Shown piece after piece: positions 4,436 through 21,248 of a DNA stretch of 41,473 nt. The stretch is from NCBI GenBank assembly GCA_015492645.1, contig WGER01000078.1, positions 1 through 41,473 of the forward strand, written 5' to 3'. This DNA is from Nitrospirota bacterium. GTDB taxonomy: Bacteria; Nitrospirota; Thermodesulfovibrionia; Thermodesulfovibrionales; JdFR-85. A program made the translations under genes and the position numbers. The notes beneath the pieces are model-generated. The model did no database searches. It was not told the origin of the DNA and worked only from the letters and a program-made list of their open reading frames with translations. Within the stretch, counting starts at the first letter, position 1. Each line of letters starts with the position of its first letter.

Positions 4436-4447
4436 CATGGCCTCCTT

Positions 4448-5515
4448 TCAGTCCTTACTCCTGTGGCAGACATTACACCCATTCTGTCCACCACCTGCAG
4501 GCCAGCCCCTGTAGTCCCAGCGGAGGATCTTATAATAGGGTGAGGCATGGGCATAATGGCAACTGAGGCACATCACCACCGCGCCCGTTTCGGTGGTCCC
4601 GTTCCCGGGCTCCACTATATTGCTTGCAGAGGCGGGAACCGCAGGTCTCGCCACCGGTGCGAGCAGGTCATACGTGGTATAACCGGTAAACTCCCCTGAG
4701 TTCGGCAGGACCACATCAGTGGGGTGTCTTATAAAGGGAGAGGTGGTGTCCCCACCTATACCGGAGATGGAGTGGAAGTCACCATGGCAGGTGGCGCAGA
4801 ACCCGCTTATCGTCTGGCTCGAGGGCCTTATCCCTATCTGGCCACCAGAGTGGCATGCACCACAGACGGATGTGTCCATCGGTGTGGTGGCCCCGAAGTA
4901 CTCGTTGTGGTCTGAGGCAGAGGAGGTTGCCTGCCAGTCGGAGTCCTCATACCCCTTCACCCCGTTCAGAAACCTGTAGGAGTTCCATACCTGATCAGCC
5001 ACATCCAGTTGTCCATTCACATTGTTGTGGTGTGCACCCTTTATGGAGATTATACCCACAGAGGCGCTGAAGTTTCTCACACCGTGACAGCCGTTGTTAC
5101 CGCTACAGGTGAGTTCATTCTGACCTACCTGGCCCGTATGGACGGCCCCTGGTGGGGCTATAAGGGTATCATCCGGGTTGCCAATCTCCACCACATTGTG
5201 GCCATTCGCATCAGAGATGGCAAGGTAGTAGAAGTTGCCACCTGCAAGGGGAGCGGTGGGAGCAGAGGTGTTGTATACGATTGGGATGCCATCAACTATT
5301 GTGTCAGAGGTGGAACTGCTATGACAGCCGATGCAGTCATTGATGAGAAGGAACTCATAGGGTCCGGTGGTGCCCCACTGGGCCAGCAGGGTATTGTCCT
5401 GACTGTAATGGATGGTATGGCAGTTGCTGCAGGCAATACCGGGATCGATCGCCTCTGCCCTGCCCGCAGGCACTCCCAGGATCAAGAGAAGAATTATCCA
5501 TCTAAGACCGTTCAT
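4448..5515 (-). CDS. OmcS/OmcE-like filament-type multiheme cytochrome (paralog 1)
   Basis: A 355-residue protein with a signal peptide (about residues 1-22) and six CXXCH motifs (CSNCH at residue 29, CIGCH at 61, then CGACH, CATCH, CLSCH, and CNVCH at the C-terminus). It also has a CX5CH site (CSGNNGCH). Landmarks follow the order I recall for Geobacter OmcS: a first heme followed by TMH/TIH, GGxFYYL, GHNV, the third heme site, YRFL, CATCHGDFHS, RHPTD, CLSCHYAHAS, and a terminal heme. OmcS-type proteins polymerise into extracellular heme wires. It differs from canonical OmcS in the CX5CH site and in an extra CGACH before heme 4. The ATG at 5515 has no ribosome site and sits only about 4 nt from the predicted sigma-54 transcript start. 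Homology is from memory and could be checked structurally. Confidence 0.85.
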   Translation of the reverse strand: MNGLRWIILLLILGVPAGRAEAIDPGIACSNCHTIHYSQDNTLLAQWGTTGPYEFLLINDCIGCHSSSTSDTIVDGIPIVYNTSAPTAPLAGGNFYYLAISDANGHNVVEIGNPDDTLIAPPGAVHTGQVGQNELTCSGNNGCHGVRNFSASVGIISIKGAHHNNVNGQLDVADQVWNSYRFLNGVKGYEDSDWQATSSASDHNEYFGATTPMDTSVCGACHSGGQIGIRPSSQTISGFCATCHGDFHSISGIGGDTTSPFIRHPTDVVLPNSGEFTGYTTYDLLAPVARPAVPASASNIVEPGNGTTETGAVVMCLSCHYAHASPYYKILRWDYRGWPAGGGQNGCNVCHRSKD

Positions 5516-5530
5516 CTAAGAAATTAATAA

Positions 5531-5545
5531 GCAAAAAATATGCCA
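5531..5545 (-). promoter_or_regulatory. Sigma-54 promoter inside the cytochrome operon
   Basis: The minus strand reads TGGCAT-ATTTT-TTGC, an excellent -24/-12 match. Its flanks are nearly identical to the promoter at 21382-21396 (AACTGGCATATTTTTTGC here, AACTGGCATATTTCTTGC there). It overlaps the end of the 16-heme gene and would start transcription near 5519, almost at the ATG of the OmcS-like gene. Confidence 0.72.
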
Positions 5546-5546
5546 G

Positions 5547-6785
5547 TTACATCTTATGGCACTGGATACAGAGTTCCCTGTGACGGTCAAACCTGAGCAT
5601 TATCTCCGCCCTCGCATCGTGCATACTGTGGCAGGTCTTACAGGTAATCGTGCTCCCATCCCTCGGATCCTTCACCCCCTCACCCATCGGATGGCTCACC
5701 TTGTGCTGTGCCCTGTGGCAGGCCACACAGGTGCCTATTACATCTGCCTGCACCTTCATATACAGGGGCCTTGTGGAATGCATCGGCATATGACACCCGA
5801 AGCACTGTCTGTTCTTCACTGGTGCACACCTTATACCCTTCAGTTTCCTGGTCATCCTGCTGATCCTGGTATCGATGTCTGCGTGGCACTCAAGACAGGC
5901 ATCCCTCTCATTAACAGTAAAGCCTGGTCTGTCTGAGGCATGGTAGTTGTGACATAGGAGACAGGGCTGCTCAGAGATGCCATAGTGGAGGTCGTCCTCA
6001 TGGAACCTTTTCGGATCCTTCACATGACAGTTGAAGCAGAGTTCCGGTCCCTCTGCCTTCAGTTCCACAGGGGCACCTTCCACAAATGGCTTGTGGCAGG
6101 CGGTGCAGTTTCTCTCAAGAAAGTCGGGATGACCCTCTGGCCCGAGCAGTCCCGCTGTATTCGCACTATGGCCTGTATGGCAGGAGATACATTCCATCTT
6201 TTCCGTCCTGTCTGTGATGGAGACATCACCCACCTTACAGCCCGGGGCATGACACCTCTGGCAGAACCGGTTTGAAGGCCCTACAAGGAGGTTATACTCC
6301 TTGGAGGCATGGGGTTCGTGACAGGCCGAGCACTCACCATTGTTAAATGGGGGATGGGCGGTGAGGTCCTCATTTATCTTCTTCTTGAGGTTCTTATGGC
6401 ACTTGAAACAGATTTCCTTCTGAGGCCTCACAAGGAGGCTCCTGTTGTTGCTACCATGAGGAGAGTGGCAGTCAGTACAGAGCCCATCCCTGATCGCCCC
6501 GTGCATCCTCTCCTGGCTCACCTTCTCCTGTAGGTCCTGATGGCAGGAGTAACAGAGTCCGTTTATCCTGTCCCTCACAAGTCCCTTATGTGAACTGGCG
6601 TGAGGGCTGTGGCATGCTGTACACCTGCCCTCCCTGAATGGTTCATGCACAGAGGAGAGGGACAGTTCTCCCTCTGTATCCTGATGACACTGATAACAGA
6701 CCTCCTGCAGGGCCTCACCCGGGACAGCCCTGGGGCCCAAGATGAGGATCATCAGAAGGAGCCCCACACTGATTCTCATCTTCAT
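5547..6785 (-). CDS. 16-heme c-type cytochrome with paired CXXCH repeats
   Basis: About 412 residues with a signal peptide (about 1-24, no lipobox) and sixteen CXXCH motifs. They are arranged largely as pairs of the doubled-CXXCH type (a CXXCH followed by a CHxPHAS/CHxPHGS motif about 25 residues later). This is the architecture of soluble periplasmic or surface decaheme-type electron wires. One pair is irregular, with a long heme-free stretch containing RTEK. The GGAGGG ribosome site favours ATG 6785 over the GTG at 6788. It follows the 26-heme lipoprotein by 12 nt. The combination of a soluble large cytochrome with a lipoprotein cytochrome and a beta-barrel in one operon suggests it feeds or extends an outer-membrane conduit. 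Which side of the membrane it occupies cannot be read from sequence. Confidence 0.9.
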   Translation of the reverse strand: MKMRISVGLLLMILILGPRAVPGEALQEVCYQCHQDTEGELSLSSVHEPFREGRCTACHSPHASSHKGLVRDRINGLCYSCHQDLQEKVSQERMHGAIRDGLCTDCHSPHGSNNRSLLVRPQKEICFKCHKNLKKKINEDLTAHPPFNNGECSACHEPHASKEYNLLVGPSNRFCQRCHAPGCKVGDVSITDRTEKMECISCHTGHSANTAGLLGPEGHPDFLERNCTACHKPFVEGAPVELKAEGPELCFNCHVKDPKRFHEDDLHYGISEQPCLLCHNYHASDRPGFTVNERDACLECHADIDTRISRMTRKLKGIRCAPVKNRQCFGCHMPMHSTRPLYMKVQADVIGTCVACHRAQHKVSHPMGEGVKDPRDGSTITCKTCHSMHDARAEIMLRFDRHRELCIQCHKM

Positions 6786-6797
6786 CACACCCTCCCC

Positions 6798-8780
6798 TTA
6801 TCCTGTCCTGTGGCAGACATCACACTGTCTCTGTTGAAAGGGGTTATGCTGAACATCCCTTATCAGCCCCCTGTACACACTGATATGAGGATCATGGCAG
6901 TCCAGGCATCTCCGGATCTGGTTGATGGGTCTGCCGTGCTTATTAAGGGTCTCTTCTGTGTCAGTACCGTGACAGTCTAAACACATATCAGGAGAGTCCT
7001 TCATCAGGAGGAACCTCTTCTGCCCATAATGGGATCTATGGCAGTCGAGGCAGTCCACACCCTCCTGTCTTAGTATATGGCCCTTGAACTCCGTCTTCTT
7101 CAGCAGCCTCTTGTGACAGGTGATACAGAGTGTATTCGGCAGGGCTCTCAACTGTTTATCAAGACCCGTACCGTGTGGGCTGTGGCAGGCTGTACATTCA
7201 CCCTCCTCAAGGGGGAGGTGCCTCACAGGTGAGGAGTTCAGTGTCTGTCTTACCTCACCATGACAGGTAAAGCAGAGTTCAGACTTCGGGGCCTTTGTGA
7301 GACCGGCGAAATTACTCACATGGGGCAGGTGACAGTCACTACACCTGTTCTGTTGAAAGGGGATGTGTCCCTTCTTATCCTCAGGTACCTCTGCATAGGT
7401 GCTGCCATGACAGTTTCTGCAGATGCCGTTCGCAGAGGCCTTAAGCCCGGAGGCGTAGTCTGAGGAATGGCCGGTATGGCAGTCGAGACACCTGCCCTTC
7501 TGTACGGGCTTATGGATGTAGACATCAAAAAAGGCATCCCTTTCGTGGCAGTTGTAGCATAGCCTGTCAGGTGGAAGGACCATCACCTGAGGATTGTTTG
7601 ACCCGTGGGGATCGTGGCAACTGAGACACTCCTGATTGGCAAAGGGGGGGTGTCTGAAGGCCCTCTGCATCTGATCCTTCGTCTCCTCATGGCAGACAAA
7701 ACAGACCTCCTCCTTTGAGGCAGGCAGATAGGATGCAAACTCTGAGGCATGCGGGTTATGGCAGACAGTACAGCCCTGAGTCTTGATAGGTCCATGGAGG
7801 TTACTCACATCAAGATTTGGACTCTCCTTGTGGCAGAGGATGCAGAGGTCCTTTCCGGGTGCAATGGTGATCTTCTTGAAGTCCGAGGCATGGGGGTCAT
7901 GACAGGCGGTACAGTCGCCCTCTTCCACAGGAGGATGTACAAAGGGCTTCATGAACTGTCTCTGCTGCTGTAAATGGCAACCATAACAGAGACTCCCACC
8001 ACCTACTGATACTCCTAAGGGGTCAGGGCTATCAGCAGGATTGTGACAACTGTCGCACCTGATCTCTTGCATTGGCCTGTGTACCTCCGCCCTGAGAATC
8101 GCCTTCTGGCTGGAACCGTGGGGGTCGTGGCACCCTGAACACCTCGCCTGCTGGACAGGATAACCCCCGTGTGCCTCTGTAAACTGAGGGGTGTACCTGT
8201 GGCAGGTCTGACAGAGTTGTGCCTCTGCGGTCTTCAGGTTGAACGCCTCATCCGAGCCGTGGGGGTCATGACATATCAGACAGTTCTCCTTAACAGGGCT
8301 ATGGGGTATCAGCCTGTCAAACTCCTTCCTGTCATGACAACTTATACAGAGGTCATTCACATTGCCCTTCAGGAGTTTTGGTGAGTCTGAACCATGAGGC
8401 TGATGACAGGGGACACACCTGCCTTCATTCCCCTTCATGAGGGTATGCACAGACCTCTTCTTCTTCAGATTCTCTTCAAACTGGCTGTGGCAGAGGCTAC
8501 AGAGCCTCCTCTCACCCCTGACTACAAAGGTCTTTATCGGGAGTTTCCCGTGTCTCAGATGGCAGGACTCACACTGCCTCTGTTTCATGGGCTGGTGAAC
8601 CACCTTCTTCGTAAACTCCTTCTGCATCTGCTTGTGGCAGTCCAGACAGGGTTTTGGTGCAAACCCCTTCCGTCTGGGTAGTCTCTGGACCTCTGGTGCA
8701 CAGGAGACAACCACAAAGGCCAGAAGTAATACAAACAGCCCTATTACTACAGGACCTCTCACGACCCGTGTATTATACAT
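6798..8780 (-). CDS. 26-heme lipoprotein cytochrome with paired CXXCH repeats
   Basis: From the ATG at 8780 the protein has about 660 residues and 26 CXXCH motifs, about one heme per 25 residues. It is built almost wholly from doubled-CXXCH repeats (LCxxCH then CxxCHDPHGS). The N-terminus is a lipoprotein signal peptide ending in a VVSC lipobox, so it should be lipid-anchored, probably in the outer membrane. An upstream in-frame GTG at 8804 would overlap the preceding gene and put eight extra residues before the signal peptide; the AGG ribosome site six bases before 8780 decides for the later start. It directly follows a prolyl isomerase lipoprotein, as expected for a protein with many proline-containing heme repeats. 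The role is probably the long-range electron wire of the conduit or the surface. Confidence 0.9.
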   Translation of the reverse strand: MYNTRVVRGPVVIGLFVLLLAFVVVSCAPEVQRLPRRKGFAPKPCLDCHKQMQKEFTKKVVHQPMKQRQCESCHLRHGKLPIKTFVVRGERRLCSLCHSQFEENLKKKRSVHTLMKGNEGRCVPCHQPHGSDSPKLLKGNVNDLCISCHDRKEFDRLIPHSPVKENCLICHDPHGSDEAFNLKTAEAQLCQTCHRYTPQFTEAHGGYPVQQARCSGCHDPHGSSQKAILRAEVHRPMQEIRCDSCHNPADSPDPLGVSVGGGSLCYGCHLQQQRQFMKPFVHPPVEEGDCTACHDPHASDFKKITIAPGKDLCILCHKESPNLDVSNLHGPIKTQGCTVCHNPHASEFASYLPASKEEVCFVCHEETKDQMQRAFRHPPFANQECLSCHDPHGSNNPQVMVLPPDRLCYNCHERDAFFDVYIHKPVQKGRCLDCHTGHSSDYASGLKASANGICRNCHGSTYAEVPEDKKGHIPFQQNRCSDCHLPHVSNFAGLTKAPKSELCFTCHGEVRQTLNSSPVRHLPLEEGECTACHSPHGTGLDKQLRALPNTLCITCHKRLLKKTEFKGHILRQEGVDCLDCHRSHYGQKRFLLMKDSPDMCLDCHGTDTEETLNKHGRPINQIRRCLDCHDPHISVYRGLIRDVQHNPFQQRQCDVCHRTG

Positions 8781-8787
8781 GTTCAAC

Positions 8788-10392
8788 CTAAACCTTTTCA
8801 CCACTGAACCTCTCCTTAAGGGCCTTCAGGACATCCTCAAAGACCTCTATCTCGGCATCTCTCCTCAACTGCTCCACATACTCCCTGAGTTTCTTCGTAA
8901 TCTCCTCCCGTGTGTAATCTGAGAGGACTCTGGACCTTATCTCTCCGAAATCAGGCACCTGCCCTTCCCTCCTGTCCACCAGACGGACGATCCTGTAGTG
9001 TTCCCCATCATCTATTACACCACTGATCCCGCCTACAGTGAGGCCCCTGACCGCATTCCTCACAGGCTCGGAGAGGCCATCCAGGGTGACCCATCCAACC
9101 TCACCACCTCTTTTCGAGGTGGAGGCAACAGAACGGGTCCTTGCAAGCCATCCAAAGTCTGCCCCTTTCTTCAACTGGTTCAGGACCTCCTCTGCATCCT
9201 CTCTACTCTTCAGGACTATCTCCTGGAGTCTGTATCGGGTCGGCCTCCTGTATCTGTCCATATTCCGTTTATAATACTCCCTGAGGGACCGATCGTCCCT
9301 CTTTATCTGAGGTAGCACCACGGTGCCTATGAAGACCCTCTTCAGTATCTGGTCCCTGTACCGCCTGACCTGTTCCCTGAGAGGTGACCTCTCATGATAA
9401 CCCCTCCTTAGGGCCTCCAGGTCCACAACCTTTCTGTCAATCCAGTTTTGCACAAGTCTCTCAACCGCCAGTGGAGAGGGTGTCTTCTCGGGAGAAAAGA
9501 GGGCAGAGACCCTCAACTCCTCTCCGTCAACCCTTGCGAGTACCCTGGTGTCATCCCTGAAAGGTTTCAGGTCATCGGACTCCTTTAGTTCGGCAATCAG
9601 GGCCTCATTCACCCAGATCTGGCTCTTCTGCCTGAGTTGCTGGAGGTATCTATCACTCAGTTCCCTCTCCTTCTCCTTTTTCAGTTGCTTAATTACCCTG
9701 GTCTTTCTCTCTTCAAACCTCCCCTCCGGGGGATCCCTCCTGATGAGTTTCACTATGTAGTAGATACCGTCTATCTCTGCAGGGCCTCCCCACTGCCCTG
9801 CCTTCAACCCGAGGACCAGTTCCTCAAACTCAGGAGACCTCGCAAGGGCAAGTCTGGTGTATTTTACATCCTCCCTGCCGCCGTATCTCTTCACCAAGGC
9901 AGAGAAATCACCTCCCTCAGACAGTTCTCTCTCGGCCTCTTTCGCCTTTTCAGGGGAGTCCGTCTCTATTATCGACACCCTGAAGACCTCGTACATCTCC
10001 TGGTAGTACCGCCTCGCCTCCTCCTCTGTCACCTCTATCTTGGAGAGTATCTCCTCCTGGTAGAGCCTGGTAACATCCTCCCTGATGATGTACTGCCTCA
10101 CCTTCGCCTGCACAAAGGGGCTGTCTCCGAGCCCCATCCTCTCTGCCTCCTCCACAATAAGGGTATCGTCTATCACCTTCTGTAGAAACCTCTCCAGGTC
10201 GAAACTCCCTGCGCCAGACAGGTCCTCCCTTCTGTGTTCTATCTGGAGGTCATAGAGGAGGTCAGTCTCTGTGATCGGCCTCCCGTTGACGATGGCCAGG
10301 AGCCTGTCAGTAGACCTCTCTTCCATGGTCACACAGCCTGACAGCGAGACCATAAGCACCAGGCCCAAGAAGAACAGATACAACCTCACCAT
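8788..10392 (-). CDS. Parvulin-type peptidyl-prolyl isomerase lipoprotein (SurA/PrsA-like)
   Basis: A 534-residue lipoprotein (lipobox LSGC near residue 19) with a SurA-like N-terminal helical domain (about 30-125). It has two parvulin regions: a weaker one at about 130-225 and a better one at about 385-478 (GADFGWLARTRS, GGEVGWV, GGISGVI). The protein is rich in charged helices and resembles SurA/PpiD/PrsA chaperones. Such isomerases help periplasmic proteins and beta-barrels fold, and they recur beside multiheme cytochrome genes. It overlaps the preceding gene by 7 nt and is followed by the 26-heme gene, so its likely clients are the cytochrome or the barrel encoded in this operon. An AAGGAGA ribosome site supports the ATG at 10392. 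Confidence 0.88.
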   Translation of the reverse strand: MVRLYLFFLGLVLMVSLSGCVTMEERSTDRLLAIVNGRPITETDLLYDLQIEHRREDLSGAGSFDLERFLQKVIDDTLIVEEAERMGLGDSPFVQAKVRQYIIREDVTRLYQEEILSKIEVTEEEARRYYQEMYEVFRVSIIETDSPEKAKEAERELSEGGDFSALVKRYGGREDVKYTRLALARSPEFEELVLGLKAGQWGGPAEIDGIYYIVKLIRRDPPEGRFEERKTRVIKQLKKEKERELSDRYLQQLRQKSQIWVNEALIAELKESDDLKPFRDDTRVLARVDGEELRVSALFSPEKTPSPLAVERLVQNWIDRKVVDLEALRRGYHERSPLREQVRRYRDQILKRVFIGTVVLPQIKRDDRSLREYYKRNMDRYRRPTRYRLQEIVLKSREDAEEVLNQLKKGADFGWLARTRSVASTSKRGGEVGWVTLDGLSEPVRNAVRGLTVGGISGVIDDGEHYRIVRLVDRREGQVPDFGEIRSRVLSDYTREEITKKLREYVEQLRRDAEIEVFEDVLKALKERFSGEKV

Positions 10393-11519
10393 ACCCTCTC
10401 CTTCAGTCTCTCAACCAAGTGGCTCACCGCCCTGTATGCCACCCTGTCAACTGACCTCAGTCTGCCAAAATCAAACACCTTTATCTCGTCATCCCCGTCC
10501 AGTTCCTGATCTATCTGAGAGAGGACACTCCTTGTCCTCACATCTATAAGCCTTGCCGAAAGGAGGACCCTTGGGAGTGTGGCCCTGCTGTACTCCTCCA
10601 GAGTACCAATCAGTACCTGTTCAATCCCGAGGGCCTCCTTGAGGGAATCGATCTCTGGATAACTTAACTGTGACCTGTGTCTGATATTCAGTCTCACCAG
10701 TGTATCCTTCACATCTCCCACATCAATGGGTTCCACCCCTTCCTGTCTCCAGAGTTCTGTTATCAACATATAGGTCACCGCCCTGCCGGCCCAGAACCTC
10801 TCTGTAATGTTCTTGAAGGGTATCACAGCAACGACTTTACCCCCTGGAGCTCCTGGTTTGAGGCTGAAGTCCGACAGGAGTTCTCCTATCACCACCTCCT
10901 GGAGTTTCTGCATAGAGGTTATAATCCCGAGCCCGAGGACTGACTCAAAGTCAGCACCATTATGGGAGTTGTAGTTTGCCCAGAGTATCCTTCCTGTTGC
11001 TGTGTCAAGGACCCTTGTATGTAGCCCAAAGGTGGGTATATTCCCGGCATCATACTCAACCACCGTGCCCACCAGCAGATAATCCACCTGGAGTTCCTCT
11101 TTCAGTTTCCCCAGCAGGCCACCTGGCATAAACCCCCTGTACCTCACCCGGTGTCTCCTCATAAACTCTACCATCCTGCTGTCAGGCAGTATGCTGATGC
11201 CGCGGGCCTGAAGTTCTGCCCTCACCAGGGCCATAACCTCATTCTCCACGCCCGGCACCTCTGTCAGGTTCTCAAAGGGCATAATGGCGAATGGTGGCCT
11301 TTCCACCGGAATTTCTCCCTGAGGTTGTAGCCGTGGTACCTCAACCACAGGCGGGGGAACCCTTATCTCCACATTGAGGCTCTGCAGTGTCTCATCCACT
11401 GTCACTGCAGGCCTTTTTACTGGCCCAAGGGTCGCCACCTCCTCCTGTGCAACGGTTGCCAGAGGCAGACACACAAGAAGCATCAGAAGGAGGCCGCCTA
11501 TAATACCCTTAGTACACAT
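10386..11519 (-). CDS. Exported protein with two CsgG/TolB-N-like domains
   Basis: A 377-residue protein with a signal peptide (about 1-24, ending VAQ), a proline-rich linker (about 30-75), and two related alpha/beta domains at about 75-215 and 225-375. Each begins with a strand-loop of the type AIMPFENLTE or AVIPFKNITE and contains a VDYLLVGTV or IEQVLIGTL segment. This pattern is shared by CsgG, LpoB and GNA1162 (TolB N-terminal-like fold). The two preceding genes encode single-domain lipoproteins with the same motif. The ATG at 11519 lacks a ribosome site and overlaps the upstream gene by 11 nt, which suggests translational coupling. Function is not established: assembly or secretion of surface cytochromes is an inference from context. 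Confidence 0.75.
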   Translation of the reverse strand: MCTKGIIGGLLLMLLVCLPLATVAQEEVATLGPVKRPAVTVDETLQSLNVEIRVPPPVVEVPRLQPQGEIPVERPPFAIMPFENLTEVPGVENEVMALVRAELQARGISILPDSRMVEFMRRHRVRYRGFMPGGLLGKLKEELQVDYLLVGTVVEYDAGNIPTFGLHTRVLDTATGRILWANYNSHNGADFESVLGLGIITSMQKLQEVVIGELLSDFSLKPGAPGGKVVAVIPFKNITERFWAGRAVTYMLITELWRQEGVEPIDVGDVKDTLVRLNIRHRSQLSYPEIDSLKEALGIEQVLIGTLEEYSRATLPRVLLSARLIDVRTRSVLSQIDQELDGDDEIKVFDFGRLRSVDRVAYRAVSHLVERLKERVW

Positions 11520-12090
11520 ACAGTGTCTGGATCGCCTCCCTCACCACCCTCAGGGCCGTCTCACTGAGGGTCTCTGGCTTTGCCCCAAAGTGACGGGCGA
11601 GAAAGTTTGCCCCTCCCCTCGTCTTCGTCACTGACCAGACGATGCTCCCGCCATCGGTCTCAACCATCATAAGGGTTATGGTCACCTCGGGTGCGCTCAC
11701 TGCCCCAATCCTTGTCTCTCCATACTTCTCCACTGTGCCCAGTATCACAGCCTGTACCTTCAGGTCCTTTCCAAGGGCCCTTATCTGGGACACACTCATG
11801 GAGTTTATGTCAGTAATATTCTGTCTCTTAAGGGCCCTGGTAACATTGCCGGTATGGACCACATCCACAAGTCCTGAGGCGAGGAGTTCACTTATCACCA
11901 GTTGTCTGATTATCTCGCCTGCATTTCTGTTATCAGTGAGGTTCGTGAAGGGGAGGACAGCCACCCTCTTGATGTAACTGAAGTCATACTCCTCACTGAT
12001 ATGAAAGGTCTCCACCTTGGTACTGCACCCTGACAGAAAAATCAAAGACAGTATAATGCCACACAGTACTGCTGAGGCCCTTGAGATCAT
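11509..12090 (-). CDS. CsgG/GNA1162-like lipoprotein (paralog 2)
   Basis: A 193-residue lipoprotein (lipobox LSGC at about residue 22) with one TolB-N/CsgG-like domain. It contains VAVLPFTNLTDN, then VQAVILGTV, a strand TITLMMVETDGGSIVWS, and a C-terminal helix ETALRVVREAI. It is a clear tandem paralog of the gene at 12087-12662: both share VAVLPFxNLT, GxxxEVTLxLM and AxRVVRxAI. The genes overlap by 4 nt (ATGA), typical of coupled translation. CsgG is an outer-membrane secretion channel for curli, and GNA1162 and LpoB are outer-membrane lipoproteins of the same fold. Which of these roles applies here cannot be decided from sequence. Confidence 0.78.
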   Translation of the reverse strand: MISRASAVLCGIILSLIFLSGCSTKVETFHISEEYDFSYIKRVAVLPFTNLTDNRNAGEIIRQLVISELLASGLVDVVHTGNVTRALKRQNITDINSMSVSQIRALGKDLKVQAVILGTVEKYGETRIGAVSAPEVTITLMMVETDGGSIVWSVTKTRGGANFLARHFGAKPETLSETALRVVREAIQTLYVY

Positions 12091-12662
12091 GACTCCCCCT
12101 TTGCAAATAGAGTATCTATGGCATCTCTGACCACCCTCTTTGCCGTCTCATTCAGGGTGGCACCCTTCGTACCGAAGTAACTCATCCAGAATGTCGGTCC
12201 CCCCTCAGTACGCCAGGCAGACCATAGTATGCGACCTGTAGAAGGGTCAAGGAGCATGAGATGTAGAGTCACCTCTGGATAGGCCCCCTCTATACCTCTT
12301 CGTATACCATATGCACTCACAGAACCCATTATTATTCCGTCAACCTCAAGTTCCCTGCCCAGTGCCTTGATATCTTTTATGGAGATGGACTGTAGATTTG
12401 GTATGTCTGACTCCCTCAATACCCTCAGGACCTCGCCTGGCTCCACTACATCTATCCCCCTGACAAGCAGTTCTGCAATAACCACTCTTCTGACCCTTTC
12501 AGCGGCAAGGGGGTCCTGGGTGAGGTTTTCAAAGGGTAACACCGCCACCTTTTTGGGCACCTCCAGGGTACTATCCCTGTGCACATAGAACCTGTCTGTA
12601 CCACAGCCGGCAAGTACAGAAAAAAACAGGACCATCAATACAACATTCTTCAGGGAGATCAT
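12087..12662 (-). CDS. CsgG/GNA1162-like lipoprotein (paralog 1)
   Basis: A 191-residue lipoprotein (lipobox LAGC near residue 20) with a single domain starting at KKVAVLPFENLTQD. It continues with VDGIIMGSVSAYG and VTLHLMLLDPSTGRILWS, and ends with an amphipathic helix AKRVVRDAIDTLF. The fold type matches CsgG/LpoB/GNA1162. A TTG at 12665 precedes the ATG at 12662; the AAAGGGG ribosome site fits 12662. The gene lies 58 nt after the beta-barrel gene and overlaps its paralog by 4 nt. Two lipoproteins of this type in tandem beside a larger double-domain relative suggest a hetero-oligomeric outer-membrane assembly, which is inference. Confidence 0.78.
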   Translation of the reverse strand: MISLKNVVLMVLFFSVLAGCGTDRFYVHRDSTLEVPKKVAVLPFENLTQDPLAAERVRRVVIAELLVRGIDVVEPGEVLRVLRESDIPNLQSISIKDIKALGRELEVDGIIMGSVSAYGIRRGIEGAYPEVTLHLMLLDPSTGRILWSAWRTEGGPTFWMSYFGTKGATLNETAKRVVRDAIDTLFAKGES

Positions 12663-12720
12663 CAAATTCCCCTTTCATTCCAAAAGCCCTGAATACAAAG
12701 GTTATTATAAATTATGCCTT

Positions 12721-14961
12721 TTAGATTCTGCAATTTAACTGTAACCTCAGAGTATGGATCTGTCGCTGGACATCCGTCTCCTGTCTGTTGAAACTGTAAG
12801 TAAGCCTCAGGTCAAGGAATCTCCTCATGTACCAGGTAAAACTGCTGTGCAGTGACTGTGTGTCAATGGAATCGGGCTCCCGGTGAGAGTTAGATGCGCC
12901 CAGGTTGAACCAGAGTTTCCTGGTCGGTCTCCAGTTAAGGGATATCCCCTCAGAGGTGGTGGTATCACCCTCTGTATCAGATATACTGAAGTTACCACTG
13001 AGCGTAAAGGTCCTTCCGGGCCTGTAATTCAGGGTTAAGGAGGCCCTCTTTGTGGTTGTGGACTCCTCCTCCGATGAGGTCCTCTCCAGTCCAAAGGTGA
13101 TATAACTCCTTATCTGATTGGTGAAATGGACATCGAGGCTACCTGTTATAAACCTTCCCCTGGTCTCAGTACCAGCAATGAGGTCATCTGTCAAGTGATA
13201 ACCTATATCTGTTATCATTGTTAACTGTCTGAGTATCTTTGCATCTGTGGTAAGGGTAAGGGTTGTGTTTCTGCTCCTCTTCTCATCAAATTCATAGGAT
13301 TCTGACCTGGTCAGAGTGAGTGTAGTGGTGAGCCTCTGGAGCGGTATGTACTGCAACTGCAATGAAAAGGAATTGGCAGAATGGTCCTTTTCTCCCTTAT
13401 TGTCGACGAGTTCAAACCTCTGAAGCCTCGCCTGGCTGGAGAGATTGCTGTAAGGGTCCCACCTGAGGGTTGCACTGTAAGAGCGGGTGACCTCCACTCT
13501 CTGTTCAGTCTCAAGATCAACCGAGGGATCTGAAAAGATGTTCTTGAAGACCTTACCGGCCGAGTCCTTTAAAGAGGGCATGTTCGTATCCATCCTCTTG
13601 GTGTACAGGCTCAGGTCAAGATTCAGGTTCTCCCTTATCCTCATCCCTGCCCCTATGTGTATCTCCTGCTGATAGAACTTCGAAACACTCACCACTTCCC
13701 GGGAAGTGATCAACTCGGTCCCATATGCCTCTATCTCAGTCACCAGGACATCAGACACCCCGAAGACGGTCTCATAGTTCACCACCTTGAAGTACTTTGC
13801 GGTCTGTGTAGAGGAGAGTTCGATCTCGTATCTGTAGATATCGAGTACAGGGTCATAGACCGTCACTGTAACAGTGGCTACAGGGACCTCCGTCCATTCA
13901 GCCCCTGTAAAGTTCAGGTCTGAGATAAAGACCTTCCAGTTTGCAGGGTCCTGGAGATTGGGATCACCGGTGACGTCTCTGTTCACATATATGTAGATCT
14001 TTTCTACAGGTTCCTCTGTCAGGAGTGAAAGACCGATATTATGGTAACGGGTTGTACTGAGATTGATCCTGCTGATACCTGTCTCAAGGTCATTATCAAT
14101 CAGGGCAGGCTCAGAGGGCAGAAACTCCACCTCTGGTTCAGTAAGGGTCCCAACTGCATAAAGCCCTTCAAAGGGCTCTCTCTCAAAGAGGAACTCTCCG
14201 GTCTCTGAAGAGAATTGATTTGACCTTGTCCTGCCAAGATTTCCCTTATATTCCCCGTAGAGCCTCAAAAACTCTCTCCAGAAGTTTGTATTATAGGAGA
14301 CCTTGTAGGAAGCGGAGAACTGTCTCGTCTCAGTCCTGTATATAAGTGCATCCGGGGTCTTGTCTGTATTGTTTTGATAGGTGATGTAGTACTCACCAGA
14401 AAAACTCCCTCTCTGATACTTATAGTAAGAGGAGGCAATGTATCTGTAGTTGTCCCTGTCTCCTGTCTCATAGAGTCTGTTCCTTATCCTCTCTCTGTAG
14501 AACTGTAGATAGAGGGATGGCAGATCCTGGGGTGTGAGATTAAAGAACACACTGAACAGTTCGTCAGAGGTCTTCGTCTGCCTGCCTGTGAATGCCTCTG
14601 TATCCCTCAGGTTCAGCCTGTACTGAAGTCTGAATTGATAAAATGGGGTTGACAGGGAGATCTGGAATGAAGGTTCAAGGTTCTTTGTGATCTGGGTTGT
14701 GGTGCGGCCTGAGGCATCGGTCCTGTCTGTGGTCTTGTAGTGGGCCCTTAGATAGATCTGATAGAAGACGAAAGATGTCAATCTCCTGTTGAGATTGAGG
14801 CTCAGGTTCGTGAGGAAGGACTCCTTGGTGAAAACCCTCTCTCCCTCCTCATAGGACCTCTGGTTCTGGTATGTATTGTTGAGGGTGCCGGAGAACTCTG
14901 CAAAGGAGACCGATGCTGTGAGGAGGCACATCATCACCGTCAGACAGAAAAGCCCCCTCAC
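12721..14961 (-). CDS. Outer-membrane beta-barrel (porin-like) with inserted discoidin-like domain
   Basis: A 746-residue protein with a signal peptide (cleavage near SFA at about 21) followed by alternating amphipathic strands rich in aromatic, Thr, Ser and Arg (for example LTTTLTLTRS, FQISLSTPFYQFRLQYRLNL). These are typical of a large beta-barrel. Residues about 285-420 interrupt the barrel pattern with a globular segment resembling F5/8-type (discoidin) domains (RYHNIGLSL...KYFKVVNYETVFG). The protein ends in Ile rather than the usual aromatic residue. The start is the GTG at 14961, in a GTGA overlap with the upstream gene and preceded by GGAGG. A large barrel in one operon with multiheme lipoproteins is the hallmark of porin-cytochrome conduits, so it probably sheathes a cytochrome across the outer membrane. 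Confidence 0.8.
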   Translation of the reverse strand: MRGLFCLTVMMCLLTASVSFAEFSGTLNNTYQNQRSYEEGERVFTKESFLTNLSLNLNRRLTSFVFYQIYLRAHYKTTDRTDASGRTTTQITKNLEPSFQISLSTPFYQFRLQYRLNLRDTEAFTGRQTKTSDELFSVFFNLTPQDLPSLYLQFYRERIRNRLYETGDRDNYRYIASSYYKYQRGSFSGEYYITYQNNTDKTPDALIYRTETRQFSASYKVSYNTNFWREFLRLYGEYKGNLGRTRSNQFSSETGEFLFEREPFEGLYAVGTLTEPEVEFLPSEPALIDNDLETGISRINLSTTRYHNIGLSLLTEEPVEKIYIYVNRDVTGDPNLQDPANWKVFISDLNFTGAEWTEVPVATVTVTVYDPVLDIYRYEIELSSTQTAKYFKVVNYETVFGVSDVLVTEIEAYGTELITSREVVSVSKFYQQEIHIGAGMRIRENLNLDLSLYTKRMDTNMPSLKDSAGKVFKNIFSDPSVDLETEQRVEVTRSYSATLRWDPYSNLSSQARLQRFELVDNKGEKDHSANSFSLQLQYIPLQRLTTTLTLTRSESYEFDEKRSRNTTLTLTTDAKILRQLTMITDIGYHLTDDLIAGTETRGRFITGSLDVHFTNQIRSYITFGLERTSSEEESTTTKRASLTLNYRPGRTFTLSGNFSISDTEGDTTTSEGISLNWRPTRKLWFNLGASNSHREPDSIDTQSLHSSFTWYMRRFLDLRLTYSFNRQETDVQRQIHTLRLQLNCRI

Positions 14962-16523
14962 TGCTCCTCCCTCATCTCTGCAATCCCGTATGGTGACTCA
15001 CCAACCTGCACTGTGGCGATCTCTCTCCTTGCAATCCTGTCCACAAACCTGATGGAGTTGTCCTCCCGGTCTACCACATAGAGCCTGTTGTCGCTTTCGT
15101 TCACCACGAAGTCCACAGGTCTGCCCTTGAGGTCAATGATACCCATTACAGGCGATAGTCCTGCCCTGGGGGAGACATCCTCCAGGGGTCTCAAGACAAC
15201 CACCTGTGGAGGCTCTGCCCTCAACAGATAAAGCCTGTTGAACTCTGGCTCTGTATAGAGACTCACCACAGAGTAGCCCGTATTGTTTATTCGTCTCACG
15301 GATGCCTCTACATTTCCCCTGATGAGTTCAATAACATCCACCACTGTCACAAAGTCTGAGCCTGAGTTTGCCACATAGAGCCTCCCCCTGGAGTAATCCA
15401 GATAGAGGTTCACCGGGTTCCATCCAACCTTGATCTCTGTCACATCCACGGCCCTTTCAGTGTTCAGATCAACTCTCACCACGGATATGCTGTTCGAGAG
15501 ATAGTTTGCCACATAGAGATTAATAAAACGATCCCTGTACCTCCGGAGGAGGTCCAGTTCAGAGGACTCAAGCAATGATATCCTGAGCACCCTATCAAGT
15601 GGAGGGTCTGCCACCACCCTGATCGGCCCCAGACCCACATCCACCGAGTCAACCTCCTGATAGGTGAGGGGGTCCACCACCGAGAGGTTATTAGACCTGA
15701 AGTTGGCGACAAAGATGAGTTCTCTTCCGTTGTTTATCAGTGCCGGGGCCACACTCACGGGCTCCACACCCCTGACCAGAAGCACCTCCTCTTCCACCCT
15801 GTTCACTTCAGGGTCAATGATTGATACACTATTGGAGCCCGAGTTTGCCACATACACCCTCCTTCTGTCAGCAAGCAGACCAGATGCCACACCCCTGGGC
15901 CTGTCCCCGACCAGGATCGTATCCACAATCTCCGCCCTCACCTTATCTATAACCGAGACGGTGCCCGATGCCTCGTTTGTTACATAAAGCAGTAGTGAAC
16001 TCACATAGAGTTTCTCCTTCTCAAGGAAGAACCTGGGCTCAAAGAAATCTCCCTCCCTGTAAGAGTCGTCCACATCCCACCTCAGAAAGATCGTCCTGTT
16101 CTGGGAGGCAGGGATCCTCAGGTCCGTCTTCAGGTGAACAGTATCCACTCTCAGGCCGAGGGGATCGGCATCCTGCCTCACAATGAAGGGGTCCTTAACC
16201 TTTATAACCACCTCCCTGTAATAACCCTCCGGCACCCTTCTGTCCGCCAGCAGGACCTGTCTGCCTTTCACACTTATGGAGTCTATCTCCACAGGATTCC
16301 TGATCAGTTCGATCCTCTGTCCTGTCTCTGACAGGAGGACCAATGAGTGAATACTGAAACGGATCTCTTTCCTGGGGACATCGGCCAGCGAGAGAATCAC
16401 CGTCACCCTCCCCTGTGGAAGATATCTACCGACAGGTCCTGCTGGAATCCCCTTACAGGCTGTAAGGACAAAAATCAGGAGGAAGAGTAAAAATGGCTTT
16501 CTTAACAGATTACTGCTCTCCAC
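14958..16523 (-). CDS. YVTN beta-propeller lipoprotein with DUF4382-like N-domain
   Basis: From the GTG at 16523 the product has about 521 residues. A lipoprotein signal peptide ends in LTAC at about residue 23. Residues about 35-175 form a beta-sandwich-like region resembling DUF4382. Residues about 180-515 are YVTN/lactonase-like propeller repeats (VYVANSGSNSVSIIDPEVNR, LYVTNEASGTVSVIDK, LYVANSGSDFVTVVDV). The upstream ATG at 16544 would place extra charged residues before the signal peptide; GGAG eight bases before 16523 supports the GTG. It overlaps the NHL gene by 14 nt and the barrel gene by 4 nt. Propeller lipoproteins often sit at the surface end of electron-transfer complexes. No catalytic motif was seen. 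Confidence 0.83.
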   Translation of the reverse strand: MESSNLLRKPFLLFLLIFVLTACKGIPAGPVGRYLPQGRVTVILSLADVPRKEIRFSIHSLVLLSETGQRIELIRNPVEIDSISVKGRQVLLADRRVPEGYYREVVIKVKDPFIVRQDADPLGLRVDTVHLKTDLRIPASQNRTIFLRWDVDDSYREGDFFEPRFFLEKEKLYVSSLLLYVTNEASGTVSVIDKVRAEIVDTILVGDRPRGVASGLLADRRRVYVANSGSNSVSIIDPEVNRVEEEVLLVRGVEPVSVAPALINNGRELIFVANFRSNNLSVVDPLTYQEVDSVDVGLGPIRVVADPPLDRVLRISLLESSELDLLRRYRDRFINLYVANYLSNSISVVRVDLNTERAVDVTEIKVGWNPVNLYLDYSRGRLYVANSGSDFVTVVDVIELIRGNVEASVRRINNTGYSVVSLYTEPEFNRLYLLRAEPPQVVVLRPLEDVSPRAGLSPVMGIIDLKGRPVDFVVNESDNRLYVVDREDNSIRFVDRIARREIATVQVGESPYGIAEMREEQ

Positions 16524-17487
16524 CGCTACTCTCCATCGGCTCAAAGACCTGTATCCTTCTGTTGAAGGTATCCGCCACTATCACCCTCCCCCTTGAATCT
16601 ACATCTAAGTAACTCGGAAACTGGAACCATCCTGGAGACCATCCCTTCCCGCCAAACTCAAAGAGGAACTTCCCCCTTTCTCTGCTGTAGGCTGATATGG
16701 TGTGTCTCATATAGTCAACCACATAGACCATCTGTCTCCTCACATCCACACCCACACTCTTTGGCTGGCTCAACTTCCCTGTCACGCCCCCCTTCTCCCC
16801 AAACTTGAAGAGGAAACGGTTATCCTCATCGTAGACATATATCTTGCTGTCCGTGATGTTTACCAGATAGACCCTCCCCTCATCGTCTATCTTCACATCT
16901 ATTATGGGGGCCCTTTTGCCCTCCTCAACCGGGGCGAGTAACCCCTTCAGGGCACCCTCCTGATCGAGCAGGAGGACACCCCTGAAGTTCTGACCTGCAA
17001 GATATATCTCGCTCCTCCTGTTGACTGCTATCCTGTAAGGCTTGAATTGCTCACCCTCTCTCTCCGTTGTTATTATGATGTCCTTCTGCCAGAAGCAGGC
17101 CCTGTCAAAGACAGAGACCCTGTGGAAGGGGGTCTCCTCCGTGGGTGCCTGGATGATGTAGAGGTTTCCCTCTGCGTCCACGGTGAGCGCCAGGGGAGAG
17201 GTAACCCCGCGCCTTTTGTCAAGGGTGAGGAGCGGATAAAGTGCTGTATTGTATATAATCACCCTGTTTCTGCCATCTATCACATATATCTCATCCCTCA
17301 AACGGTCAACATAGACGAAGAACGGCAGAAGGAGCCTCCTGCCCTCCTCATCCCTGTTGATCTGGGTCTGAAACCTCACAAACTTCTGCTGGGCTGATAA
17401 AGGCAGGACTATTGAGAGGATAACAAAAAAAAGGGTCATCCCCTGCAGGGCATGTCTGAACAACCTATAGAAGACCTCGCCCCTCAT
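16510..17487 (-). CDS. Secreted NHL-repeat beta-propeller protein
   Basis: A 325-residue protein with a hydrophobic export signal (about residues 15-33, ending LSAQ) and six or so NHL-type blades (VDRLRDEIYVIDGRNRVIIY, VDSRGRVIVADTFNRRIQVF). It is the first gene of the long leftward operon. A GTG at 17490 and an ATG at 17487 are both possible starts; neither has a ribosome site. A near-consensus sigma-70 promoter at 17510-17538 puts the transcript start near 17503, leaving a leader of only about 16 nt. The propeller probably mediates protein-protein contact at the cell surface. Confidence 0.85.
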   Translation of the reverse strand: MRGEVFYRLFRHALQGMTLFFVILSIVLPLSAQQKFVRFQTQINRDEEGRRLLLPFFVYVDRLRDEIYVIDGRNRVIIYNTALYPLLTLDKRRGVTSPLALTVDAEGNLYIIQAPTEETPFHRVSVFDRACFWQKDIIITTEREGEQFKPYRIAVNRRSEIYLAGQNFRGVLLLDQEGALKGLLAPVEEGKRAPIIDVKIDDEGRVYLVNITDSKIYVYDEDNRFLFKFGEKGGVTGKLSQPKSVGVDVRRQMVYVVDYMRHTISAYSRERGKFLFEFGGKGWSPGWFQFPSYLDVDSRGRVIVADTFNRRIQVFEPMESSGGEQ

Positions 17488-17509
17488 CACAAAATAAAAT
17501 CTCTGTATT

Positions 17510-17643: not shown

Positions 17644-17688
17644 CGTGATTTCTCTTCTGGAAGTCGGCCTACCTGAAATGATACTTCA

Positions 17689-18795
17689 TCAGTTTTTGGT
17701 GGTATGGCAGGTAAAACATCCACCTGTGTTACCACTTCCCACTATCATCTGGGTGTAGTCCCATCTCAACATATCAGGCTGGTCAGAACCGTGTGGCCTG
17801 TGACAACTGAGACACATCACTATCGCCTCTGCCCTTGTGGGATTACTCGGATCCACCCATGCCACAGGGGCCTCCGTACTGTAGCCTGCACCAGTTGGGT
17901 CATAGGCAGAGTATTCACCAGTTGTTGGAAGGGCTATATCTGTAGGGTGCCTGATCCAGGGACTGGACGTACCCATCCCGTCTCCAGGGCTGGGGTCATC
18001 GGGTGTACCATGAAACACTCCATGACATCCCTGGCAGAAGGCAGTAATGCTCTTATAATTTGCAAGAGCGTTACCCTCAGAGTACTGAGCAGTGGTACCC
18101 TTGTAGTAGTTGTGGTCACCAGTAGTGGGATCCGTGGTGGCCTCCCAATCAGAATCCTCCACGCCCACCACATAATCTGCATAGTTGAGGGGATCACCAA
18201 AGGGTGGCTGACCGTGACCCTTCAGAAATCTGTACCAGGGCTTTGAGTCATCGTGGTGTGCGGTGAAGACATGACAGCCCTGACAGCCTCCCCTCTGTTC
18301 ATTGTTAGCACCGGGTGGGTCTGCAAGGGTATCATGACAGGAATTGGCACAGCCAAAGATGTTTCTGCCTGGAGCAGTGGTGAGGGTTGCATCGGCACCT
18401 GCGATCCCGTAGACATTGTGTCCATAGGCGTCACCTGAATTTACCACCCAGTAGAAATTACCACCTGCAAGGGGGGTTGTCGGTGGAACCGAATTATAAA
18501 CTATGGGTATCGTTACACCTGAGACATTTACTATGGTACTGGCTGTGGTGGAAGAGTGGCATCCCACACAGTTGGTGATGAGCAGATAGTCGTTGGGTGT
18601 TGAGGTGAGAGAGCCGCCGGTCAGGTTTCCTGAGGCGTCCCAGCCCACACCACTGCCTCCCCTTGCCACTGCCGTGCCGGCCTGACTGTTATGCATCGTG
18701 TGACAGACAGAGCACTGCCCTGTCACTGCCCCCCTGGCATATCCACTGAAAACAATAGTAAAAATAAAAATAATAAAAAATTGCAATCCTTTCAT
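17689..18795 (-). CDS. OmcS/OmcE-like multiheme cytochrome (paralog 4, divergent)
   Basis: A 368-residue protein with a signal peptide (about 1-22) and six CXXCH motifs (CSVCH, CVGCH, CQGCH twice, CLSCH, CFTCH) plus a CX3CH site (CANSCH) at the third-heme position. OmcS landmarks are kept: CHTMHNSQ after heme 1, GGNFYWV, GHNV, YRFLKG, CQGCHGVFHG, RHPTD, CLSCHRPHGS, and a C-terminal heme. The extra CQGCH between CANSCH and the YRFL block is not in the other three paralogs. The gene follows paralog 3 by 97 nt, has a GAGGGGG ribosome site, and is closed by the terminator at 17619-17643. It is likely a filament or filament-cap cytochrome; this is inference from the family. Confidence 0.87.
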   Translation of the reverse strand: MKGLQFFIIFIFTIVFSGYARGAVTGQCSVCHTMHNSQAGTAVARGGSGVGWDASGNLTGGSLTSTPNDYLLITNCVGCHSSTTASTIVNVSGVTIPIVYNSVPPTTPLAGGNFYWVVNSGDAYGHNVYGIAGADATLTTAPGRNIFGCANSCHDTLADPPGANNEQRGGCQGCHVFTAHHDDSKPWYRFLKGHGQPPFGDPLNYADYVVGVEDSDWEATTDPTTGDHNYYKGTTAQYSEGNALANYKSITAFCQGCHGVFHGTPDDPSPGDGMGTSSPWIRHPTDIALPTTGEYSAYDPTGAGYSTEAPVAWVDPSNPTRAEAIVMCLSCHRPHGSDQPDMLRWDYTQMIVGSGNTGGCFTCHTTKN

Positions 18796-18892
18796 AATTA
18801 CCCCCTCGCAAAATCTATCTATTTAGCCCATGGCTTAACAATTCTAACACAATCACATCCAATTTTCCACTCCACTTATAGTTTAATAAGAG

Positions 18893-19999
18893 TTACTTAT
18901 TCGTATGACAGATATGACAACCTCCGCTTCCACCGGTCACAATGGAGGAGTAGTCCCATCTCAGCATATCGGGATACTGGGTGGCGTGTGCCTTATGGCA
19001 ACTGAGACACATCACCACATCCGAGTCAAGATTTACCGTACTGCTTGAAGACGCAGGCACAGTCTGTCTGGCAAGGGGGGCATCCAGGCTGTAAGGCCCA
19101 GGATTGCCTCCGTTGTAGGCGGAAAATTCACCGGTAGAGGGCAGAACCACATCCGTAGGGTGCCTCACGAATGGAGAGGAGGTGTCACCACCAATCCCCT
19201 CAAGACTGTGAAAGGTACCATGGCAGGTGGCACAGAATCCACTTATCGTCTGGCTTGCAGGCTTCACATAGTTGACATCCCCGCCGGGGTGGCACTGCGT
19301 ACTGGAACAGCCTGAAAGACTCATTGGTGTAGATGCCCCGAAGTACTCGTTGTGGTCAGTGGCCGAAGAGGTGTACTGCCAGTCTGTGTCCTCGTAGCCC
19401 TTCACACCCCAGAGGAACCTGTAGGAGTTCCAGGGCTGATCCGCCACATCCAGTTGCCCGTCCACATCCCTGTGGTGTGAACCCTTCATCGCCACTATAC
19501 CGGTGATCTCGTTAGGAGGAGAACCGGATATATCCCTCAGACCGTGACAGCCGTTCTCACCCGCACAGGTGAGTTCGTCTGCCGTAACCTGGCCTGCATG
19601 GTGGGCACCTGGTGGGTTGTAGAGTGTGCTCTCTTTATAGGAGGCACCGAAATCCACCACATTATGCCCATAGGAGTCGTCCGCCCCGGGACCCTTCACA
19701 CCCAGGATGTAGGCGAAGTTTCCACCGGCAAGGTCTCTCGTGTCGGTATGCATCACCTGGGGGACCTGCGAGGTGCCAATGGTCTCTATCGCATTGGCAG
19801 TCCCCATCGCATGGCAGCCGAGACAGTCGGCAATGAGGAGGTAATCGTAAGGCCCCGCAGTACCCCATCCACTCAACCTGGTGCCGTCCTGGCTGTAGTG
19901 CATGGTGTGACAGTTCGAGCAGACCCCTGTGACTGCGAATGACGAAGTTGAAAATAAAATAAGGCCCATGAAAAGCAGGAAAATGACCAATCCCCTCAT
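18893..19999 (-). CDS. OmcS/OmcE-like multiheme cytochrome (paralog 3)
   Basis: From the ATG at 19999 the product has about 368 residues with a signal peptide (MRGLVIFLLFMGLILFSTSS then FA). An upstream ATG at 20038 would give a charged, non-signal N-terminus; AAGGAG just before 20005/19999 decides for the later starts. It has five CXXCH motifs (CSNCH, CLGCH, CATCH, CLSCH, CHICH), a CX5CH site (CAGENGCH) at heme 3 and a CX4CH site (CSSTQCH) before heme 4. It is very close to paralog 1 (shared DVADQxWNSYRFL, HNEYFGA, SQTISGFCATCHG). The gene sits between two other OmcS-like genes in the same operon. Confidence 0.87.
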   Translation of the reverse strand: MRGLVIFLLFMGLILFSTSSFAVTGVCSNCHTMHYSQDGTRLSGWGTAGPYDYLLIADCLGCHAMGTANAIETIGTSQVPQVMHTDTRDLAGGNFAYILGVKGPGADDSYGHNVVDFGASYKESTLYNPPGAHHAGQVTADELTCAGENGCHGLRDISGSPPNEITGIVAMKGSHHRDVDGQLDVADQPWNSYRFLWGVKGYEDTDWQYTSSATDHNEYFGASTPMSLSGCSSTQCHPGGDVNYVKPASQTISGFCATCHGTFHSLEGIGGDTSSPFVRHPTDVVLPSTGEFSAYNGGNPGPYSLDAPLARQTVPASSSSTVNLDSDVVMCLSCHKAHATQYPDMLRWDYSSIVTGGSGGCHICHTNK

Positions 20000-20058
20000 G
20001 CCCATTTTCTCCTTTCTATACAATTCTAAACTCTTCATCCCTTCCTCCCCTGACTCAT

Positions 20059-20121
20059 CTGAATCCCCTCTGGGGACTCAGAAGAACCAGGGTTGAAGGG
20101 GGCCCCATCCGAGACCCCCTT
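20059..20121. other. Two stem-loops between OmcS-like paralogs 2 and 3
   Basis: Stem 1 at 20059-20081 pairs CTGAATCCCC with GGGGACTCAG (one mismatch, loop TCT). Stem 2 at 20096-20121 pairs AAGGGGG with CCCCCTT. Neither is followed by a T-run on the minus strand, so they look more like mRNA processing or stability elements, or a partial attenuator between paralogs, than true terminators. Confidence 0.5.
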
Positions 20122-20126
20122 CCTGT

Positions 20127-21248
20127 TTAGTTCTTGGTTGTATGGCAGGTGAAGCAACCGCCGGTGCCTCCACCACCTGCTATCATATCAGCATACTTCC
20201 ACCTCAAGAGATCAGGCTGGTCAGAGCCGTGTGCCCTGTGGCAACTGAGACACATCACGATTGCACCGTTTGCTGAGGCAGCATCACCAGGTGAAACTGT
20301 ACCACTTGCAGTTGCTGGCACAGTGGGCCTTGCAACGGGCGCCTCAATGCTGTAACTGGTGTAGGCAGAGTACTCACCAGAATTTGGTAGCACTATGTCG
20401 GTCGGATGTCTCCTCCAGGCAGATGCAGCAGGGTCGTCCACATCGATGTCACTGTGGAAGATACCGTGGCACTCGGCACAGAAGTAACTGATTGTCTGCT
20501 TGTCAGAGTAGGTATTCACACCATTTCTTGCGCTTGTATCATGCACTCCGTAGTACTCGTTGTGGTCAGTAGCACTGGCTGTCCACTGCCAGTCTGAATC
20601 CTCAAGCCCCTTGATGCCTGCGAGGAACCTGAAGGAGTCACCGAGTGTGGTACCCATTGCCTGGTCATTAACACCCTCATTGGAGTGATGGGCACCTCTT
20701 AGACCATCAAAGCCGGGTGCATCCCTGAGGCCATGACAGCCGTTGGTGCCAGCACAGGTAAGTTGGGATGACCATGTAGCACCACCACTGTTGACCGCTG
20801 TGGTAGAGAGGGTGTCAGGAGTCGCAAGCGGATCCCAGCCTGGCGGGTTATACCCCAGGTTCGGACCTATATTGCTGTCCTGACCCACACCGAGGTCTGC
20901 CACATTGTGACCGTAGGAGTCCTGCCCGTTGACGACCCAGTAGAAGTCTCCACCGGCAAGGGTCTGACCAGGCCCCTGTGTTGAGGGACCGGCAGTATGG
21001 AGCACCGCAGGGGCCCCGGTCGATGTATTGGTGGCCGAGGCTGTATCAGTGGAGTGGCAACCCACACAGGTGTTGGTGAGCAGGTAGTCGTATGGACCGC
21101 TGGTACCCCATCCACTCAACCTGGTGCCGTTCTGGCTGTAGTGCATGGTGTGGCAGTTTGAGCACTGACCGGCAATACCGAAGGAGTAGCCATAAGACAA
21201 AGCAATGACAGAAACCATTACCAGTGCAACAAGAAGCATCTTTCTCAT
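20127..21248 (-). CDS. OmcS/OmcE-like multiheme cytochrome (paralog 2, first gene of the operon)
   Basis: A 373-residue protein with a signal peptide (about 1-24) and five CXXCH motifs (CSNCH, CVGCH, CAECH, CLSCH, CFTCH) plus a CX5CH site (CAGTNGCH) in the third-heme position, giving the hexaheme count of OmcS. Landmarks include CHTMHYSQNG, GGDFYWV, GHNVADLG, FRFLAGIKG, CAECHGIFHS, RHPTDIVLP and CLSCHRAHGS, with a heme close to the C-terminus. It lacks the extra site before heme 4 that paralogs 1 and 3 have. A strong AGGAGGTGAG ribosome site precedes ATG 21248. Expression should come from the sigma-54 promoter at 21382-21396. A filament-forming electron wire is the best family-based guess. 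Confidence 0.88.
   Translation of the reverse strand: MRKMLLVALVMVSVIALSYGYSFGIAGQCSNCHTMHYSQNGTRLSGWGTSGPYDYLLTNTCVGCHSTDTASATNTSTGAPAVLHTAGPSTQGPGQTLAGGDFYWVVNGQDSYGHNVADLGVGQDSNIGPNLGYNPPGWDPLATPDTLSTTAVNSGGATWSSQLTCAGTNGCHGLRDAPGFDGLRGAHHSNEGVNDQAMGTTLGDSFRFLAGIKGLEDSDWQWTASATDHNEYYGVHDTSARNGVNTYSDKQTISYFCAECHGIFHSDIDVDDPAASAWRRHPTDIVLPNSGEYSAYTSYSIEAPVARPTVPATASGTVSPGDAASANGAIVMCLSCHRAHGSDQPDLLRWKYADMIAGGGGTGGCFTCHTTKN

Follow-up and report, generated by a model that had tools for sequence, protein, structure and literature searches.

The window analysed here, contig WGER01000078.1 of a Nitrospirota bacterium (GCA_015492645.1; 41,473 nucleotides), encodes four distant homologs of the filament cytochrome OmcS, designated P1 to P4. 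The heme ligands of OmcS are conserved in their family, the fold modelled for P4 matches OmcS, and the genes lie in a conserved cassette together with an MtrB-like outer-membrane barrel. We propose, as the likely reading, that P1 to P4 are secreted OmcS-family cytochromes which assemble head to tail into heme wires outside the cell and are co-encoded with an OetABI-type conduit. This type of cassette has already been published as Oet (PMC10553843), as has the CX2-5CH sister clade of OmcS, and what is new here is the Nitrospirota members of the OmcS-like family. A Nitrospirota lineage with dsrA would be credited with complete cassettes for an OmcS-like wire and its conduit, including several wire paralogs of old divergence, and would join the sulfur-cycling bacteria for which electron exchange with minerals or partners is likely.

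The OmcS-like genes and their cassette

All four open reading frames are present on the minus strand, in a series of 15 co-directed genes that extends from 21248 down to 296, mostly with tiny gaps or overlaps. The genes are listed below in that order; heme motifs are counted with their CX3-5CH forms, and the clades are those of the family tree.

20127 to 21248, minus: OmcS-like cytochrome P4, six heme motifs (five CXXCH and one CX5CH), signal peptide, clade B
18893 to 19999, minus: OmcS-like cytochrome P3, seven heme motifs (five CXXCH, CX5CH and CX4CH), clade C
17689 to 18795, minus: OmcS-like cytochrome P2, seven heme motifs (six CXXCH and CX3CH), without CX5CH, clade A
16510 to 17490, minus: NHL-type beta-propeller
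14958 to 16544, minus: beta-propeller lipoprotein, lipobox LTAC identified by eye
12721 to 14961, minus: outer-membrane beta-barrel, probable OetI, best PDB fold MtrB
12087 to 12665, minus: small lipoprotein, weakly GNA1162-like
11509 to 12090, minus: small lipoprotein
10386 to 11519, minus: FlgO-like secreted protein
8788 to 10392, minus: peptidyl-prolyl isomerase lipoprotein (PpiC/SurA type), probable folding helper
6798 to 8804, minus: 26-heme cytochrome lipoprotein, probable OetB, lipobox VVSC
5547 to 6788, minus: 16-heme cytochrome, probable periplasmic OetA
4448 to 5515, minus: OmcS-like cytochrome P1, seven heme motifs (six CXXCH and CX5CH), clade C
3089 to 4438, minus: 8-heme cytochrome, conserved cassette member
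296 to 2890, minus: NHL/BACON/FG-GAP surface-type protein, cassette end

The reading frame of P3 stays open up to 20038, and the start at 19999 is supported by a Shine-Dalgarno-like AAAGGAG as well as by a clean signal peptide. The four proteins are secreted, with mature forms of 333-349 residues (signal peptide cleavage judged by eye) and pairwise identities of 42-60%, and no further member of the family was found in the genome (2.43 Mb). Recent tandem amplification was considered and rejected, since P1 to P4 sit in three old clades on the tree (P2; P4; P3 together with P1), each of which has members in other genomes. The possession of four copies is likewise not exceptional, since the family was found in 13 of the 148 genomes of a phylum-wide sample and its carriers have one to seven copies each. 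Among named genomes, the MAG Nitrospirae JdFR-85 is the closest. One OmcS cassette (L083) lies on a contig binned as Heimdallarchaeota; since this cassette is of bacterial type, the assignment is probably a binning error.

The cassette recurs in many Nitrospirota and Desulfobacterota genomes in the order OmcS-like gene(s), NHL propeller, propeller lipoprotein, barrel, three small secreted proteins, peptidyl-prolyl isomerase, 26-heme lipoprotein, 16-heme cytochrome, OmcS-like gene and 8-heme cytochrome, and P1, between the 16-heme and 8-heme genes, occupies the conserved place. The relatives collected include some from Ca. Desulfofervidaceae, which share the barrel (1e-16). In its AlphaFold2 model the barrel consists of some 28-30 long strands, with a beta domain inserted, and among the PDB matches listed MtrB of the Mtr complex is the best both by E-value (2.6e-9) and by TM-score (0.40/0.44). 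Together with the synteny over many genomes, this match bears out the suggestion of the earlier note that a conduit is encoded beside the OmcS-like genes. From gene content, the 16-heme cytochrome, the 26-heme lipoprotein and the barrel are probably OetA, OetB and OetI, respectively. The inserted domain of the barrel comprises ~140 residues between strands and is conserved in the barrel's relatives.

Elsewhere in the genome there is a match above the cut-off to dsrA, a marker of sulfate reducers (L101, G000:C31:79070-80248); one TAG falls within the matched stretch and could be the gene end or a real interruption. Further multiheme genes, sampled by Pfam search and in selected regions, are also carried. 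They include a giant cytochrome fragment with 22 CXXCH and five CX4CH motifs in 1232 aa (L106:3-3698) and, at L103:2659-5591, a lipoprotein (nine CXXCH, one CX3CH) and, after it, an outer-membrane-like protein of 651 aa, which together are possibly a second porin-cytochrome conduit.

On the plus strand, the OmcS-like genes adjoin a gene (21588-23171) for a membrane protein that carries TPR repeats at its C-terminus, which by eye resembles glycosyltransferases of the GT-C/TMTC type and for which Pfam gives TPR only. A TPR membrane protein is also found beside OmcS-like genes in seven other loci (L031, L059, L063, L070, L075, L084 and L099), often in several copies; the adjacency is not kept in close relatives, and the family is common elsewhere. 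Since OmcS-type filaments are glycosylated, a link is possible. The next gene on this strand (23535-24734) encodes a Wzy_C/O-antigen-ligase-like protein, possibly a second glycan gene beside the cytochromes.

Homology to OmcS and conservation of the heme ligands

The OmcS query sequence was verified against 6EF8 at every position. Since a phmmer search with a single sequence (18893-20038) gave no PDB match at E<=1, profiles were used instead. A profile of P1 to P4 searched against all PDB sequences found OmcS at 1.2e-11 and no other significant match, indicating that the order of OmcS landmarks which the earlier note had described in the four proteins is real and far above chance. With a profile of 124 relatives, OmcS was found at 4.2e-27 (profile positions 38-339 aligned to OmcS 8-348) and the next match, a nitrite reductase, at 8.8e-4, a value that gauges the score attainable from shared heme motifs alone. 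When the profile was built from relatives without any window sequences, P1 to P4 scored 1e-106 to 1e-130 and OmcS 2e-26; the same profile gave 1.4e-3 for the 8-heme cytochrome of the window, 890 for the 26-heme lipoprotein and no match for the 16-heme cytochrome. OmcS alone as the query found only P4 at a significant level (9.5e-6), and Pfam and NCBIfam returned generic heme-motif families only, and no OmcS model.

The individual landmarks proved less uniform than had been described. GGxFxWV is present in two of the four proteins, the other two having GGNFYYL and GGNFAYI; CHTMH is replaced by CHTIH in P1, CAxCH by CQGCH in P2 and YRFL by FRFL in P4. The third heme site is present in all four, in a form other than the CXXCH of OmcS (see below).

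Conservation was counted in two sets, one of 136 relatives and one consisting of the alignment of 124 relatives. All six OmcS heme sites are present in order, site 3 being non-canonical. The five canonical sites, together with the histidines at OmcS positions 110, 247, 257 and 335, are conserved in 126-135 of the 136 relatives, and the counterpart of OmcS His16 (mature numbering) in 126. In the alignment, the 18 heme cysteines and proximal histidines of P4 are kept in 123-124 rows, and its non-proximal histidines 12, 90, 163, 164, 205, 241, 257 and 316 (mature numbering) in 120-124 of the 124. These eight conserved non-proximal histidines are enough for bis-His ligation. Mature P4 His12 is the counterpart of OmcS His16, the CHTMH histidine, which we take to be the inter-subunit ligand on heme 505 of OmcS; the CHTMH histidine is conserved in 122 of the 124 relatives.

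The AlphaFold2 monomer of mature P4, a single heme-free chain, was predicted with a pLDDT of 86.7 and a pTM of 0.88. A Foldseek search of 350,542 PDB chains with this model returned OmcS first (E 7.5e-5, probability 1.00, 399 columns) and only one other match, OmcE (E 2.0), which is not significant. Over the whole chain the TM-scores against OmcS were 0.42/0.37 with an rmsd of 13.8, low values that may be expected since the model is isolated, heme-free and poor in secondary structure. The predicted fold thus supports membership of the OmcS family but does not show superposition of the heme chains. Profile homology, conserved ligands and the fold search all bear out the description of P1 to P4 as OmcS-like. 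The companion term OmcE-like is not supported by sequence (E=0.27 over 42 residues), nor significantly by fold.

Heme site 3 and the CX5CH motif

Site 3 of OmcS is CSSCH. At the aligned position 99 of the 136 relatives, including P1, P3 and P4, have CX5CH (consensus LTCAGxxGCHG), and in the clade of P2 this is replaced by CX3CH plus CXXCH, so that none of P1 to P4 has CXXCH at all six sites as in OmcS. Since their site 3 is non-canonical, as it is in published members of the sister clade, P1 to P4 are named OmcS-like and not OmcS. Across 100 sequences with a CX5CH-type motif the two cysteines and the histidine never vary, and 98-99 keep the flanking glycines. Mapped on the tree, the CX5CH label requires only three changes, where shuffled labels require about 30. 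From the invariance of the motif we infer that the CX5CH site binds heme.

If so, heme counts by CXXCH alone would be too low, missing one heme per subunit in most of the CX5CH clade, and models of conductivity or redox behaviour would be affected. The combination of five CXXCH with one CX5CH is found in 60 of the 136 relatives. Our literature search found nothing on "CX5CH" as such; the class CX2-5CH is used in PMC12545173. A protein called pentaheme by CXXCH count in PMC9539880 may be a hexaheme. We further suggest, tentatively and as something possible rather than expected, that the CX5CH clade is a heme-wire class of its own, in which the widened heme-3 loop and a seventh, side heme alter the chain or provide a lateral exit, such that one cell could build three chemically different wires (clades A, B and C) from one cassette. 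On this view, the true number of hemes in proteins reported as pentaheme would be six or seven.

Proposed polymerisation, alternatives and known systems

Of the 12 axial histidines in OmcS, 11 belong to the subunit itself, and the remaining one, a ligand of heme 505, is provided by the neighbouring subunit (PMC6584659). We envisage that P1 to P4 are exported and loaded with six or seven hemes, and that they join head to tail as extracellular wires of heme. As in OmcS, the CLSCH heme (heme 5) of each subunit would receive as a ligand the second histidine of CHTMH from the adjacent subunit. The low whole-chain TM-scores of the P4 model against OmcS, the difference at heme 3 and the published dispute over OmcS filaments (PMC11077965) count against this reading. 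The conduit would comprise the 16-heme cytochrome in the periplasm, the barrel of 28-30 strands and the 26-heme lipoprotein at the surface, and the wire would exchange electrons with these three components. Electrons would thereby pass between the periplasm and the wire, presumably to or from a mineral, an electrode or a partner cell.

OmcS and OmcE share little beyond heme-motif geometry (PMC9473688), and the matching of landmarks by eye can therefore mislead. That the resemblance of P1 to P4 to OmcS is merely a by-product of heme motifs common to unrelated multiheme cytochromes is nevertheless extremely improbable, since neither the other multiheme proteins of the window nor those of the whole PDB score like OmcS, the matches extend to the stretches between the motifs (GGxF, GHNV, YR(F/I)L and RHP) and the fold search agrees with OmcS.

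Given true homology, the four proteins might still be monomeric extracellular terminal reductases or shuttles that dock on the conduit and form no filaments. A mutant study has questioned whether OmcS filaments are physiologically required in Geobacter (PMC11077965), the polymerisation of P1 to P4 is itself inferred, and the seventh heme motif is a possible surface exit site. We consider this unlikely, however, as the CHTMH histidine is so highly conserved and a monomer would have no obvious need of it. It is also conceivable, if rather unlikely, that polymerisation is restricted to a subset of the four, with a single clade (P3/P1 or P4) forming the wire and the others capping it, branching it or linking it to the barrel. 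The occurrence of three separate old clades in one locus, the fixed place of P1 beside the conduit genes and the heme-3 architecture of P2, unlike that of P1, P3 and P4, would all fit such a division of labour, but the ligand set, with both of the presumed interface motifs, is common to all four proteins. We favour the polymerisation of all four into wires.

Like OmcS of Geobacter sulfurreducens (6EF8, 6NEF), which is the top match by profile and by fold, P1 to P4 are secreted and have six heme sites in the same order, and the landmarks CHTMH, GGxF, GHN, RHP and CLSCHRAH are shared. They differ in that their identity to OmcS is about 20%, heme 3 is CX5CH or CX3CH plus CXXCH instead of CXXCH, three of the four have a seventh heme motif, and mature P4 has conserved histidines 163, 164 and 205 in a region where OmcS has His147 only. 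OmcE (7TFS), the second and last fold match of the P4 model, has four hemes; it has no sequence similarity to OmcS, and its hemes superimpose on four of the six OmcS hemes (PMC9473688).

The cassette of OetABI with OmcS/OmcX/Apc2a, found in the sulfate-reducing partners of ANME and in Geobacter and proposed to serve direct interspecies electron transfer, likewise combines a barrel with multiheme cytochromes, both periplasmic and lipoprotein, and with several OmcS-like genes; it was mapped in Desulfobacterota, and Nitrospirota are absent from the main text (PMC10553843). A parallel to the proteins themselves is the OmcS sister clade with DA_402 of Desulfurivibrio alkaliphilus, a presumed ortholog of the P1 to P4 family from another phylum; a Desulfurivibrio relative with CX5CH (L046) falls in the large clade of P3 and P1. 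DA_402 is extracellular, has seven CX2-5CH motifs of which six align with OmcS, is upregulated >100-fold on iron oxide and has been modelled as a polymer (PMC12545173).
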